From the NCBI GenBank assembly GCA_019800895.1, contig JAHVKF010000002.1, positions 744,001 through 808,000 on the forward strand: a DNA stretch of 64,000 nucleotides. Direction: 5' to 3'. Numbering within the stretch: position 1 is the stretch's first letter; each line of letters starts with the position of its first letter. The notes under the pieces are model-generated. The model was not told the origin of the DNA and searched no databases. It saw nothing but the letters and a program-made list of their open reading frames with translations. The stretch comes from Halomonas denitrificans. GTDB taxonomy: Bacteria; Pseudomonadota; Gammaproteobacteria; Xanthomonadales; Wenzhouxiangellaceae. The position numbers and the translations under genes are program-made. Below, piece by piece: positions 59,898 through 63,750 of this stretch.

Positions 59898-60731
59898 TCA
59901 GGCGATGACGCCGATCAGCAGCAGCAGGGCGACGACGGCCAGCCAGAGGGCGAGGACGCGGCGCGCCAGCTGCCGACCCTCGTGGAGGCCGGCGGCCAGG
60001 GGGGTGGGCCGGGGTTCCGTGTCGGACTCGTCCTGGCATTCATCGGGCCCAGCGCGGCAAACGGCGTCGGCGAGGTCGTCGAGCAGCCGCGCGGGAAAGC
60101 GCCAGCGATCGGCGCGTGCGTCGAAGCGGTCGAGCACTCGGTCGAAGTCGGTCATGAGGGCGACCGAGAGCGTCATCAGGCCCACCGCGGGCCAGTTCAG
60201 CACGCCGAGCACGGCGTCGAAGGCCGGGCGCTGTTCCGTTCCGGCCGGGAACAGGTGGCGAGCGAGGCGGATCGAGCGATAGGCGACGGCGCCGGGAATG
60301 CCCAGGACGGCGAACCAGAACAGGACGCCGAACCAGCGAGCGAGGGCGGCGTGCAGCACGGCGGCCGCGCCCTGTTCGCGGGTGGAGTCCGGCTCGATGC
60401 GCAGACGCAGGCGCGCCATTGCCGACTCTTCGCCGCCGCGCGCCGCCGAATCCACATCCCGATCGAGGTCGCGGGGGCCGAGCACGAAAAGGAGGACCAC
60501 GGTCCCGGCCAGCAACCGCCCGACGTCGCCGAGCAGCAGGTCGGCCAGTCCGGCCAGGAGCCCGCCGGCAATCAGCGCTGCGATCACGGTCGCGGCTGCC
60601 GGGGCCCAGGCCGGTCCTCGTCGCCCGGCCCACAGGGCGGGTTCGGCCATCCAGTCGATGTTCCGCCAGCGCTCGACGTCGGGCCAGGCCCGAGACAGGC
60701 CAAGGGCGATCAGAAGCGCGAGTAGGGTCAC
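59898..60731 (-). CDS. ampE: AmpE-like membrane protein (CobD/AmpE family)
   Basis: 277 residues with about four membrane segments. Family blocks LLFVLGPRDLDRDV (about 80-93) and ARWFGVLFWFAVLGIPGAVAYR (about 130-151) are clear. AmpE is an inner-membrane sensor-like protein associated with AmpD in beta-lactamase regulation. Here ampD is not adjacent in the window. Start is GTG at 60731. Confidence 0.85.
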   Translation of the reverse strand: MTLLALLIALGLSRAWPDVERWRNIDWMAEPALWAGRRGPAWAPAAATVIAALIAGGLLAGLADLLLGDVGRLLAGTVVLLFVLGPRDLDRDVDSAARGGEESAMARLRLRIEPDSTREQGAAAVLHAALARWFGVLFWFAVLGIPGAVAYRSIRLARHLFPAGTEQRPAFDAVLGVLNWPAVGLMTLSVALMTDFDRVLDRFDARADRWRFPARLLDDLADAVCRAGPDECQDESDTEPRPTPLAAGLHEGRQLARRVLALWLAVVALLLLIGVIA

Positions 60732-60836
60732 GTGAGCTCGTCGACGATCATCAAGCGTCCGTTGTAGACCCGCCGGTGCGGCAAGTCAACCGACGGCCGA
60801 CCGATGCGGTGCGGGACGGGGCGCGGCCGGATCGCG

Positions 60837-61214
60837 TCAGGCGAGCCCGAAGGAGGATCCGCAGCCGCAGGTCGTGGCCGCGTTGGGATTGCGGATGATG
60901 AAGCGGGCCCCCTGGAGGTTCTCGGCGTAGTCGACCTCGGCGCCTTCCAGGTACTGGAAGCTGAGCGGGTCGACCAGCAGGGTGACGCCGTCGCGATCGA
61001 CGCGCACGTCATCCTCGTCGGCCGCTTCGTCGAAGGTGAATCCGTACTGGAATCCCGAGCAGCCCCCGCCGGTGATGTAGACCCGCAGCTTCAAGGCCGG
61101 ATTGCCGTCGGCCAGGATCAGCTCGCGCACCTTGCGCGCGGCCGACTCGGTGAACACCAGTGGTGCGGCGTCCGTGTCGGCGGCGTGGGTCGAATCGTGC
61201 ATCGAGTCGTTCAT
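60837..61214 (-). CDS. erpA: iron-sulfur cluster insertion protein ErpA
   Basis: 125-residue A-type carrier that delivers Fe-S clusters to apoproteins. The three ligand cysteines are present: [11 protein letters not shown] and TTCGCGSSF near the C-terminus. The family core [13 protein letters not shown] begins at about residue 20. ATG at 61214 gives a slightly long, His/Asp-containing N-terminus; internal starts are possible. Confidence 0.93.
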
Positions 61215-61320
61215 GGCGAGCCGGCTCCGGGGTTCCTGGCGGTCAGCTATGGAAATGAGGTTCGGGACCAGCATACTCAAGCGGCTGCACGAACGCAGCC
61301 GACGCGTCGGAGGCCGGCGA

Positions 61321-61426
61321 TAAAAAAAGCGGTCCGAAGACCGCTTTTGCCCCAAACCGGATGCTGCTCGGTACGTGGTGATACCGGAACGGTACCCCTG
61401 TGCTGTTGTTAATATTGTGTTTGCAC
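61321..61426 (-). ncRNA. candidate small RNA upstream of erpA
   Basis: A good minus-strand promoter (listed separately) would start a transcript near 61426, and a terminator ends it near 61322, so about 105 nt. The 5' part (61397-61426) is A/U-rich and unpaired (AACACAAUAUUAACAACAGC), unlike the GC-rich surroundings. A 7-bp hairpin with a 3-base loop follows at 61380-61396, then a linker and the terminator stem. No Rfam family is recognised. A short reading frame starts at ATG 61431 but has no ribosome site and runs through the terminator, so a non-coding role is preferred. Confidence 0.62.
61325..61348 (-). terminator. intrinsic terminator of the candidate sRNA (U-run on both strands)
   Basis: 10-bp stem (61325-61334 with 61339-61348), loop of four bases, flanked by seven A on the plus left side (61322-61328, giving a minus-strand U-run) and four T on the right. 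It would stop transcription from the minus-strand promoter before erpA. Confidence 0.9.
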
Positions 61427-61432
61427 GCCATG

Positions 61433-61462
61433 GTTATACCGCCGTGCCGAAGCCGAAGTCAA
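61433..61462 (-). promoter_or_regulatory. sigma-70 promoter of the candidate sRNA
   Basis: On the minus strand, TTGACT (plus 61457-61462) and TATAAC (plus 61433-61438) are separated by 18 bp. Five of six consensus bases match in each box. It points towards the AU-rich segment and the terminator. Confidence 0.7.
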
Positions 61463-61612
61463 GCCGAAGCATGACTTCCGGCAGGGGGGATCGGTTCCGG
61501 GCCCCGCTCGGGTCGCCGGCGGCCCGGCGCCGGTGCGGGCGAGCGGGTGTCCACGCTTGAGGCTCGTGGCGCCAGCCGTCACAATAGCCTCCCGTCCGCC
61601 AAGGTCCCCGGC

Positions 61613-62032
61613 ATGCTCTGGCTCAAGGCCTTCCACATCGTGTTCGTCGTCACCTGGTTCGCCGGTCTGTTCTATCTGCCGCGGTTGTTCGTCTACGCGG
61701 CCGAGAACCCGGAGCCGGCGGTCCAGGACCTGTTCCGGATCATGCAGCGGCGGCTGCTCGGCATCACCCACATCGGCGGCGCACTCGCCGTCGGCTTCGG
61801 GCTGGCGCTGATCCTCGCCGCGCCCGAGGTCTACCTGGCGATGGGCTGGCTGCATGCAAAACTGGTGCTGGTTGTCCTGCTGGTCGCTTATCACCTGTGG
61901 TGCTGGCGACTGGTACTCGCCTTTCGAGCCGGACGCAATCGCCACGACTCGACCTGGTACCGCTGGTTCAACGAAGCGCCGGCCCTGCTCCTGGTCGCGA
62001 TCGTACTGCTGGCCATTCTCAAACCGTTCTGA
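61613..62032 (+). CDS. hemJ: protoporphyrinogen oxidase HemJ (UPF0093)
   Basis: 139-residue integral membrane protein with four helices. Conserved heme-ligand histidine in KAFHIVFVVTWFAGLFYLPRLFVY (about 5-28) and GWLHAKLVLV (His, Lys) are typical of HemJ, which oxidises protoporphyrinogen IX to protoporphyrin IX in heme synthesis. ATG at 61613 is preferred because it puts the first conserved helix at the N-terminus. Located 14 bp before a multiheme cytochrome gene. Confidence 0.9.
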   Translation: MLWLKAFHIVFVVTWFAGLFYLPRLFVYAAENPEPAVQDLFRIMQRRLLGITHIGGALAVGFGLALILAAPEVYLAMGWLHAKLVLVVLLVAYHLWCWRLVLAFRAGRNRHDSTWYRWFNEAPALLLVAIVLLAILKPF

Positions 62033-62046
62033 ACGGAGACTCCCGA

Positions 62047-63750
62047 ATGCGATTCCGCCTGCCCCTCCTGGCGACCCTCCTGCTGCTCGCCGGCACCCCG
62101 GCCCGTGCCGACATCACCGGCATCGTGGTCGACGATCTGACCGGACTACCGATCGAGGGCGCCCGGGTGCGAATCCAGGCCACCACCGATGCCCCGTTCG
62201 TGACCGGGGCAGACGGCCTGTTCTCGCTTCCCGATCCGGTCGGCGTGGTCACGATCACCGCGGTCACCCCGTACGACAGCGCCAACGCCGACAACTACAT
62301 CACCGGATCGGTCGACGCGGTCGCCGGCGTGGACACGGAAATCCGCCTGACTTCGCTACCGACGGCCGACCGCGTGCCCTACGACCCGGGCACTTCGACC
62401 AACTGCGCCAGCTGTCACTTCGACCAGTTCTCCGAATGGCGCGACTCGCGTCACGCCGGTGCCGGCGTCAATCCCTGGGTGCTTGACCTGTTTTCGGGAG
62501 ACGGGACCCCGGGGGGCGGAAACGGCTACGTGTTCCGCGACACGCACGACCCGGACGACACGGGGTTCTGCGCCACCTGCCACGCGCCGCTGGTCGATGC
62601 CCAGGACCCGGGCAACGTGTTTCTCGACGAGGTCACCGAGCCGTACGGGCTCGACGGCGTGAGCTGCCTGGCCTGCCACCAGATGGCGGAGGTCAACGAC
62701 GACACCGATGCGCTGCACCACCTGGGCAATACGCTCTACCGGTTTCCGGACGATCCCTCGACCCCGCTCTGGGTGTGGGGACCGCTCGACGACGTGAGCT
62801 TCTCGGTGATGCGCGCTTCGTACCAGCCCGGCTTCTCCGATGCGAAGTTCTGCGCCTCCTGCCACCAGTACAACAATCCGGAGACCGGAGCGCCCGGCCA
62901 GACGACCTACGACGAGTGGCTGGCCGGCCCCTACTCGGTGCCGGGGCCCGATTTCATGGCCTGCCAGGACTGTCACATGCCTGCGGCCGATGGACCGGGT
63001 CCGATCTCCTCGATCGGCGGTACACCGATCCGGCCAGCGGAACAGCGGCGCTCGCACGAGTTCATCGGAGCGACCCCGCCGCAGCTGTCCGACGCGATCG
63101 GTCTGACGCTGGACGCGTGGGTCGACGGCGAGGAGCTCGCCGTCCAGGCTCGGGTCAGCAACGACGGCGCCGGGCACGAGTTTCCGACCGGTGTGTCGAT
63201 CCGCAACGCGGTGCTGGTCGTCGAGGCGCGCGTCGACGGCGAACCGCTTGCGCAGGTCGGCGGTCCGGTGGTGCCGTTCTACGGTTCGGCCGCCGGCGGC
63301 TCCGGACCCGAGGACCTGGCCGGCCGCCCGGGTCGCGGCTTCGCCCGTGTCCTCGAAGGCCGGATCAACGGCAGCGGCCCGGTCGTGGCCCCGGTGCTGT
63401 TCATCGACGCCGAGGCCGTCCAGTCCGACACTCGCATTCCGTCAGGGGGTGCCGATGTCTCGGACTACCGCTTCGCGCTCGGCTCGGCACTGGTTGCCGA
63501 GGCCGAAGTGACCGCGCGGCTGGTCTACCGGCGCGCATGGCGGGACCTGGCGGTGACCAAGGGCTGGACCGAGACCCCGTCCGGCGACCCGGTGGAGACC
63601 GAAGTCCAGGCCGAGTCGCTGACCGTCGACCTGACCGGCTCGGTCGGAGCGATCCGCCCGGTGCCCGCGCTGAGCACGCTGGCGCTGCTGCTGATGATCA
63701 GTCTTCTTCTGGCGGCGGCGTGGGCCAGCGGGCCCGCGGGTCGCCGCTGA
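62047..63750 (+). CDS. pentaheme c-type cytochrome with carboxypeptidase-like N-domain and sorting-like tail
   Basis: 567 residues. Signal peptide, then a beta-sandwich resembling a carboxypeptidase regulatory/CnaB domain (ITGIVVDDLTGLPIEGARVRI, about 23-43). Five heme-binding CxxCH motifs follow: CASCH 120, CATCH 175, CLACH 207, CASCH 269 and CQDCH 306. A beta-rich region (about 345-530) precedes the C-terminal tail VPALSTLALLLMISLLLAAAWASGPAGRR, similar in layout to the tail of the protein at 56327. Periplasmic or surface redox protein; partners not known. ATG at 62047. Confidence 0.83.
   Translation: MRFRLPLLATLLLLAGTPARADITGIVVDDLTGLPIEGARVRIQATTDAPFVTGADGLFSLPDPVGVVTITAVTPYDSANADNYITGSVDAVAGVDTEIRLTSLPTADRVPYDPGTSTNCASCHFDQFSEWRDSRHAGAGVNPWVLDLFSGDGTPGGGNGYVFRDTHDPDDTGFCATCHAPLVDAQDPGNVFLDEVTEPYGLDGVSCLACHQMAEVNDDTDALHHLGNTLYRFPDDPSTPLWVWGPLDDVSFSVMRASYQPGFSDAKFCASCHQYNNPETGAPGQTTYDEWLAGPYSVPGPDFMACQDCHMPAADGPGPISSIGGTPIRPAEQRRSHEFIGATPPQLSDAIGLTLDAWVDGEELAVQARVSNDGAGHEFPTGVSIRNAVLVVEARVDGEPLAQVGGPVVPFYGSAAGGSGPEDLAGRPGRGFARVLEGRINGSGPVVAPVLFIDAEAVQSDTRIPSGGADVSDYRFALGSALVAEAEVTARLVYRRAWRDLAVTKGWTETPSGDPVETEVQAESLTVDLTGSVGAIRPVPALSTLALLLMISLLLAAAWASGPAGRR

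Follow-up and report, generated by a model that had tools for sequence, protein, structure and literature searches.

An erpA-linked small RNA of the Wenzhouxiangellaceae as a predicted antagonist of an sX13-type RNA

Features of the erpA upstream interval

The window (the whole 64-kb stretch of DNA analysed here) contains erpA and a divergent hemJ-like gene, and the interval between them holds a predicted small-RNA gene (Table 1). A preliminary description of this interval had proposed a stand-alone small RNA with its own minus-strand promoter, an A/U-rich 5' segment, an internal hairpin and a strong terminator, of no recognised family, which could regulate the adjacent iron-sulfur or heme genes.

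Table 1. Coordinates in the window of the putative small-RNA gene, its parts and its neighbours.
Feature	Position	Strand	Details
erpA, Fe-S cluster insertion protein	60837..61214	-	NF010147, 183.8 bits (cut-off 117)
Predicted small RNA, ~105 nt	61322..61426	-	Fold z -4.42; conserved 5' of erpA in the family
Intrinsic terminator	61322..61348	-	10-bp stem AAAAGCGGTC-TTCG-GACCGCTTTT (UUCG loop) and T-run; sequence, fold, conserved in relatives
Conserved segment AUCCGGUUUGGGGCA	61348..61362	-	Identical in 26/30 erpA loci; no exact copy in the other 4
5' hairpin GUGC...GCAC closing an A/U-rich loop	61400..61426	-	Fold; hairpin with other letters in relatives
Sigma-70-type promoter	61433..61462	-	TTGACT 61462-61457, 18-nt spacer, TATAAC 61438-61433
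hemJ-like gene (protoporphyrinogen oxidase), divergent neighbour	61613..62032	+	TIGR00701, 131 bits, just under the cut-off of 138

Both the promoter and the terminator of the preliminary description were confirmed. The pattern TTGAC-N17..19-TATAA occurs only once in the window, was not found in any of 100 dinucleotide shuffles and is conserved in the family, and the terminator is supported by the three kinds of evidence listed in Table 1. A generic scanner run over 60400-62400 called no promoter and did not call the terminator at 61348-61322, because its rules demand a final T in the -10 box and five T past the stem; it listed one weak plus-strand terminator-like site within the interval (61388-61407). 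We infer the 5' end to be about 7 nt past the -10 box. An RNA of 108 nt folded at -37.4 kcal/mol (shuffles, mean -22.59, sd 3.35; z -4.42), and none of 200 shuffles was as stable.

The A/U-rich 5' segment forms the loop of a predicted 5' hairpin. This loop, which is retained in g1 and g6, might be a possible Hfq site, and Hfq was found in 21 of the 21 genomes searched. The letters of the hairpin differ by genus: GUGC..GCAC in g1, GCAC..GUGC in g6, GUGAUGU..ACAUCAC in g7 and GGUCA..UGACC in g2. The support for the hairpin comes from this by-eye comparison of genera, because pair counts within g6 do not exceed those of shuffles, and the hairpin is missing from some minimum free energy folds. The internal hairpin is present in the window RNA; as a feature of the gene it had to be given up, being not conserved even within the genus. 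A coding role was considered and rejected: a short ATG frame (MKIQHH...) occurs in several g6 RNAs, is absent in g1, and its end is not kept (by eye). Rfam gave no match at gathering scores in the window, in agreement with the earlier statement that no known family was recognised; one match within 61150-61650 had an E-value of 1.4 (11.3 bits vs a cut-off of 80), and nine loci of relatives gave sub-cut-off matches only.

In several relatives, -35/-10-like boxes were seen by eye between the terminator and erpA, and in this reading erpA would be a transcription unit separate from the small RNA. In the window, CTTGAGTATGCTGGTC sits between the terminator and erpA at 61265-61285 (minus strand), a sequence which we take to resemble an IscR/Rrf2-type site.

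Conservation and distribution of the erpA-linked RNA

The family is one of environmental bacteria. A search for ErpA detected the gene in 36 of its 43 genomes analysed, and an RNA lies 5' of it in 33 of these 36: 28 have CCGGTTTGGGGC, and five have another G-rich segment. When 61 genomes were searched with the DNA, sequences of the genus matched clearly, chiefly over the 3' half. Thirty erpA loci were fetched, and 26 of them have a unit upstream on the same strand that consists of TTGAC-18/19-TATAA (present in all 26 motif-holding loci of L031-L060), an A/U-rich 5' segment, CCGGTTTGGGGCA and a terminator; in the remaining four, the nearest copy of the segment has two to four mismatches. Note that the invariance of CCGGTTTGGGGCA in the alignment is partly by choice, because the 26 aligned loci were selected by exact CCGGTTTGGGGCA. 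An incomplete locus (L205) was omitted from alignments A3 and A4. Loci from two further genera (L061, L062) have CCGGTTTGGGGC with a promoter and a terminator.

The conserved parts are the promoter, the 5' hairpin (same place, other letters), the segment ATCCGGTTTGGGGCA, which the preliminary description had not singled out, and the terminator; most alignment columns outside the segment and the terminator are variable. The promoter-hairpin-terminator unit, the lack of which in related species had been named as evidence against the small RNA, was thus found in the relatives. With its own promoter and an intrinsic terminator conserved as a unit, the stretch from 61426 to 61322 (minus strand) looks like an independent, trans-encoded small-RNA gene, as predicted from the sequence.

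At E <= 0.01, a covariance model of the erpA-linked RNA (R1) matched 28 of the 299 genomes from the order, and 27 of these belong to the family. The match in G238, with an E-value of 0.004 and located 3' of a frame that is crp-like by eye, was taken as chance, and matches in G013 (contig C156), G007 (contig C120) and G035 (E 0.03-0.18) were rejected since they resemble unrelated terminators. In G238, which belongs to another family of the order, CCGGTTTGGGGATCG and then a terminator follow straight after the crp-like frame (L166, G238:C33, about position 1000; by eye). Scans of more than 40 genomes were run with stricter filters.

The promoter-plus-segment pattern was found in 25 contigs of a named genome collection, which overlap with the G genomes and are not independent of them. 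In 24 of the 25 it lies upstream of erpA on the same strand, and hemJ is on the far side in 21 of the 25. The 24 erpA-linked contigs are titled Wenzhouxiangella, Wenzhouxiangellaceae, or as metagenome-assembled genomes under wider names; the other contig, from Amnibacterium (L099), has the pattern away from erpA and was taken as a chance occurrence. The segment is absent from 40 erpA upstream regions of ten other families in the order (f7 not sampled). Among those 40 regions, terminator-like sites are present in L146 (f8) and L142 (f11), and promoter-like sites in L146 and L153 (f9). In L146 (G126), an A-rich stretch and a terminator, AAGCGGCTTCGGCCGCTTTTTTG, stand 5' of erpA in the corresponding position and resemble those of g3-g5, and this is possibly a related RNA outside the family. 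The G003 assembly has two different erpA loci (L067 on C309 and L035 on C80), one of them g6-like, probably as a result of bin contamination; C309, which carries the second locus, did not enter the counts as a genome.

An sX13-type RNA with a complementary loop

In the genome to which the window belongs (G000), CCCCAAACCGG or its reverse complement occurs at two sites only: the erpA-linked RNA itself and G000:C2:358188, where it falls in loop 2 of another predicted small RNA, at a distance of 0.45 Mb. Across the 43 family genomes, CCCCAAACCGG gave 99 matches, 29 of which are the RNA itself, and the 70 non-self matches barely exceed the 61 of a reversed control. Of the approximately 70 non-self complement sites, 60 were fetched, and 22 of these proved to be one orthologous locus. 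This locus comprises a terminator and an RNA of three hairpins whose loops are C-rich, with UCCCUCCCU, GUCCCCAAA and UCCUCCCUC as examples. In helix 1 of this partner, six of seven pairs are changed on both sides. For the whole structure, none of 500 shuffles reached the observed numbers of cells paired and of both-side cells or the covariation score; the count of pairs with two-sided change was reached by four of the 500, and that of pair types by 135.

A covariance model of the partner (R2) matched 31 of the 43 genomes of the family, all with E <= 3.5e-8. Across the order, it matched 92 of 299 genomes when the limit was E <= 0.01. Two weak R2 matches were read, in G034 (E 0.006) and in G000 itself (C2:847529-847634, E 0.007), and were rejected as resembling terminators. 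In the genomes read, the partner adjoins polA in g6, g2 and f8 (one each, convergent in f8), in f12 (two), and in G030, g3 and g7; it lies away from polA on the same contig, at 11-26 kb, in G000, G001 and G004, and the two are on different contigs in G002 and in g4/g5. The G000 copy (L267:6138-6248, that is, G000:C2:358137-358247, minus strand) is located between an NTP-transferase/hexapeptide frame and a YkuD frame, approximately 23 kb from polA, and has a GGAACT..GGTC box upstream. Upstream of nearly all partner copies stands a box resembling GGAACTT or GAAACTT, with GTC or GCATC after it (by eye), an arrangement which we take to resemble sigma-E promoters.

The three stems with three C-rich loops are those expected of sX13. 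The best score for Rfam sX13 (RF02232) in the family is 34.2 (L245), below the cut-off of 50, and one f12 copy found with R2 (L263) passes with 53.8. We call the partner an sX13-type RNA because of the three C-rich-loop hairpins, the adjacency to polA in several genomes and the f12 copy above the cut-off; it is of this type by build and place, not by Rfam score within the family. In Xanthomonas, sX13 adjoins polA, is built of three stems whose loops are C-rich, is Hfq-independent, and requires loop 2 for repressing hfq and XCV3927 (from part of PMC3771888). As a target of the sX13-type RNA, hfq was considered on the Xanthomonas precedent and rejected, no GGGG being found near the hfq start in three family members (L168-L170).

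In G010, G014 and G032 (L189, L190, L218), a hairpin, GCATCCCGCCCCAAACCGGATGC, stands before a terminator downstream of an rpmA-like frame (by eye). It carries the same 11-nt complement, was seen in these three g6 genomes only among the 60 sites read, and is possibly a further partner or a decoy.

Pairing and co-variation of the two RNAs

Pairing between the two RNAs was scored as contiguous helices, because ViennaRNA duplexfold on whole RNAs returned long gappy duplexes that were of no use. The RNAs were trimmed before the terminator, and the helix energies were computed with a hand-entered stack table. Wherever both RNAs were found (24 genomes), contiguous pairing of 9-13 bp is kept, one 9-bp case (g3) being not specific; extended and evolutionarily kept complementarity to another small RNA is what is expected of a sponge. 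In g1 and g6, the helix has 13 bp, formed by AUCCGGUUUGGGG with CCCCAAACCGGAU (loop and 3' arm); in the window RNA, the first 13 nt of AUCCGGUUUGGGGCA pair in this way with loop 2 and the 3' arm of G000:C2:358137-358247(-). The helices of g7 (13 bp) and g2 (12 bp) each contain one G-U.

The partners of g1 and g6 were found via the complement, and the copies so obtained, loop letters included, served to build R2. R2 in turn detected seven partners that the complement search had not given (one each in g2, g7 and g3, two each in g4 and g5), and other letters are shown only by g4, g5 and g3. In g4 and g5, the erpA-linked RNA is without CCGGUUUGGGG and has GGGGAUUGGC or GGGGAUUGAC, and the partner loop is GGUCAAUCCCC, giving helices of 11-12 bp at -22.4 to -25.3 kcal/mol. 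Both sides thus differ in these two genera, yet they match (GGGGAUUGRC with GGUCAAUCCCC). Cognate helices of the g1/g6/g2/g7 and g4/g5 classes range from -22.4 to -28.6 kcal/mol, whereas crossing g4/g5 with the g1/g6/g2/g7 class gave group means of -15.5 to -18.5 kcal/mol; for the opposite cross they were -14.6 to -16.0 kcal/mol.

Shuffled erpA-linked RNAs paired as strongly in 0-2 of 300 cases in 23 of the 24 genomes. In a control with local windows, from which windows holding the motifs had been excluded, pairing as strong was reached by 5/150 in G013 and 4/170 in G012, and by none in G000, G006, G008, G009 and G011. Part of the fit is GGGG on CCCC. In predicted folds, the G-rich segment is no more than half accessible and not clearly unpaired (mean 0.46 across 28 RNAs). 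The net energy that remains at the site once both RNAs have been opened, computed without a shuffle control, is negative in 24/24 (-5.2 to -12.9); G033 has a more favourable site elsewhere, CCATGCGCAT (-13.7).

The g3 RNA ends approximately 0.95 kb before erpA and has a promoter and a terminator. Its GGGGGACUA pairs with UAGUCCCCC over 9 bp (-21.0), a pairing that is not specific: 26/300 shuffles and 13/584 local windows were as strong, the g3 RNA pairs equally with the partners of g6, g2 and g5 (-21.6 to -22.0), and the g3 partner gives helices of -19.3 to -19.6 with the RNAs of g4/g5. The likely g3 counterpart is the RNA at L269 (G007:C435, minus strand, ~2378-2245), with a TTGAC-TATAA promoter, a long A-rich stretch AGAAAAGAACAACAACAAAAAAAUAAGAAGAAUAAUAAUA and a terminator AAGCGGCTTCGGCCGCTTATTTTTTT. 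The RNAs of g4, g5 and g3 were called counterparts by their place, terminator and by-eye promoter, the g4 promoter being weak.

Some genomes have one RNA or neither. G019 and G030 have erpA without the RNA, and their sX13-type RNA has another loop 2; in G035, neither the erpA-linked RNA nor the partner was found. These three genomes, of 1.7-2.1 Mb, have a NUDIX-like frame (by eye) directly upstream of erpA (G030, G035, G019; L040, L051, L055). In nine genomes the RNA is present and no partner was matched, and the partner locus is likely unassembled there, because the C-terminus of polA was also not found in 9/9. This assembly-gap argument is only suggestive, because in G005 the partner is present even though no polA was detected. 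In five genomes with the partner, an intact erpA was not found.

Proposed function

We propose, with a probability of roughly 70%, that the erpA-linked RNA acts in trans on the C-rich-loop, sX13-type RNA in its own cell, as a sponge or antagonist. The direction, binding, expression and effect of the pair are predicted from sequence as follows. The erpA-linked RNA would be transcribed, perhaps constitutively; AUCCGGUUUGGGG would meet the CCCC of loop 2 and then invade the 3' arm of the loop-2 hairpin, and this invasion would hide loop 2 or lead to decay of the sX13-type RNA. The loop so blocked would be the one that sX13 uses on mRNAs. Given the sigma-E-like promoter of the sX13-type RNA, the antagonist would set a threshold for it.

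The stand-alone small RNA of the preliminary description thus holds, through its conservation in the family, and the suggested regulation of the neighbouring Fe-S and heme genes is not supported, because the conserved segment complements a loop of a distant sX13-type RNA and both co-vary between genera. The neighbourhood of erpA would be incidental or reflect mere co-regulation.

Pairing has no inherent direction, and the sX13-type RNA may instead capture the erpA-linked RNA, which would regulate mRNAs via its A/U-rich 5' loop, kept in g1 and g6, or via the G-rich segment. This seems unlikely to us: the sX13-type RNA occurs in several families of the order whereas the erpA-linked RNA, by model, occurs in one, and the latter varies widely outside the loop-2-complementary segment and the terminator. 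The RNA could also act in trans on other targets, such as Fe-S, heme or iron genes, or bind a protein; its match to loop 2 would then be a side effect of a G-run meeting C-rich loops. The conserved erpA and hemJ neighbours and the general presence of Hfq would suit such a role, any G-run fits C-rich loops somewhat (non-cognate helices near -15 kcal/mol), and the g3 pair is not specific. The matched change of both partners in g4/g5, the helix energies (-22 to -28 vs about -15 to -18) and the finding that the only other 11-nt complement in G000 is loop 2 make this reading doubtful.

The position on the same strand upstream of erpA, together with a CCGgUUU that could pair imperfectly with the 5' arm of the terminator (by eye), would fit an erpA 5' leader in which the terminator is an attenuator or part of a riboswitch. 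We regard this as very improbable, since the distance to erpA varies by hundreds of bases among relatives (the g3 counterpart being far removed), the segment is fixed in sequence beyond pairing alone, and the promoter-like boxes mentioned above lie between the terminator and erpA. A chance promoter and terminator without function is hardly credible with promoter, segment and terminator conserved in four genera.

The sX13-type, C-rich-loop RNAs regulate G-rich mRNAs, and, if the antagonist reading is true, a conserved and co-varying antagonist would show how such an RNA is held in check. It would also provide evolutionary evidence, gained without an experiment, for pairing between small RNAs and ready-made pairs for specificity tests, and it would be a warning that the genomic neighbours of a small RNA need not be its targets.

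Comparison with known systems

RNAs that capture small RNAs are already known, including one against a C/U-rich-loop RNA in Campylobacter (from parts of PMC7815308 and PMC8687705). In open-access literature, mainly at the title and abstract level, we found no antagonist of an sX13-type RNA (searches for sX13 sponges and for CUCCUCCC sRNA sponges) and no publication joining Wenzhouxiangella with small RNAs. We consider it somewhat better than an even chance that the locus represents a dedicated, stand-alone antagonist gene of the sX13 class that co-evolves with its target, in which at least two letter pairs (CCGGUUUGGGG/CCCCAAACCGG and GGGGAUUGRC/GUCAAUCCCC), perhaps with a third in g3, would do the same job across genera as a natural series of largely orthogonal pairs.

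Among Rfam families, sX13 (RF02232) is to be likened to the partner, not to the erpA-linked RNA, by the three C-rich-loop hairpins and the place next to polA in several genomes; the partner differs in that its family copies score below the Rfam cut-off (at best 34.2 vs 50), in its sigma-E-like box (by eye) and in lying off polA in G000. The partner also gave sub-threshold matches to ar14 (RF02344; 46.2 vs a cut-off of 58.8) and anti-hemB (RF02837; 33.3 vs 49.5), two C-rich-loop RNAs named for other bacteria (Alphaproteobacteria and Burkholderia), with which any homology would be putative.

In Campylobacter jejuni, CJnc180 antagonises CJnc190, whose C/U-rich loop represses a G-rich mRNA, and SprY is named as an antagonist of RNAIII (from part of PMC8687705). 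The erpA-linked RNA would, by prediction, share with CJnc180 the role of antagonist of a small RNA with a C/U-rich loop. CJnc180 is encoded opposite CJnc190, in cis, whereas the two genes described here are 0.45 Mb apart and their pairing spans 9-13 bp only.

The small-RNA sponges of Escherichia coli include IspZ for OxyS, ChiZ for ChiX, and FtsO and RbsZ for RybB, and a number of them seem to be constitutively expressed (from part of PMC7815308). Like the RNA predicted here, they are short RNAs that base-pair with a small RNA and affect how much of it there is or how active it is. IspZ and ChiZ derive from 5' UTRs, and FtsO derives from an open reading frame, whereas the erpA-linked RNA looks like a separate gene. 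It further differs from the E. coli sponges in its predicted target, an sX13-type RNA, and in a segment that changes together with its partner between genera.
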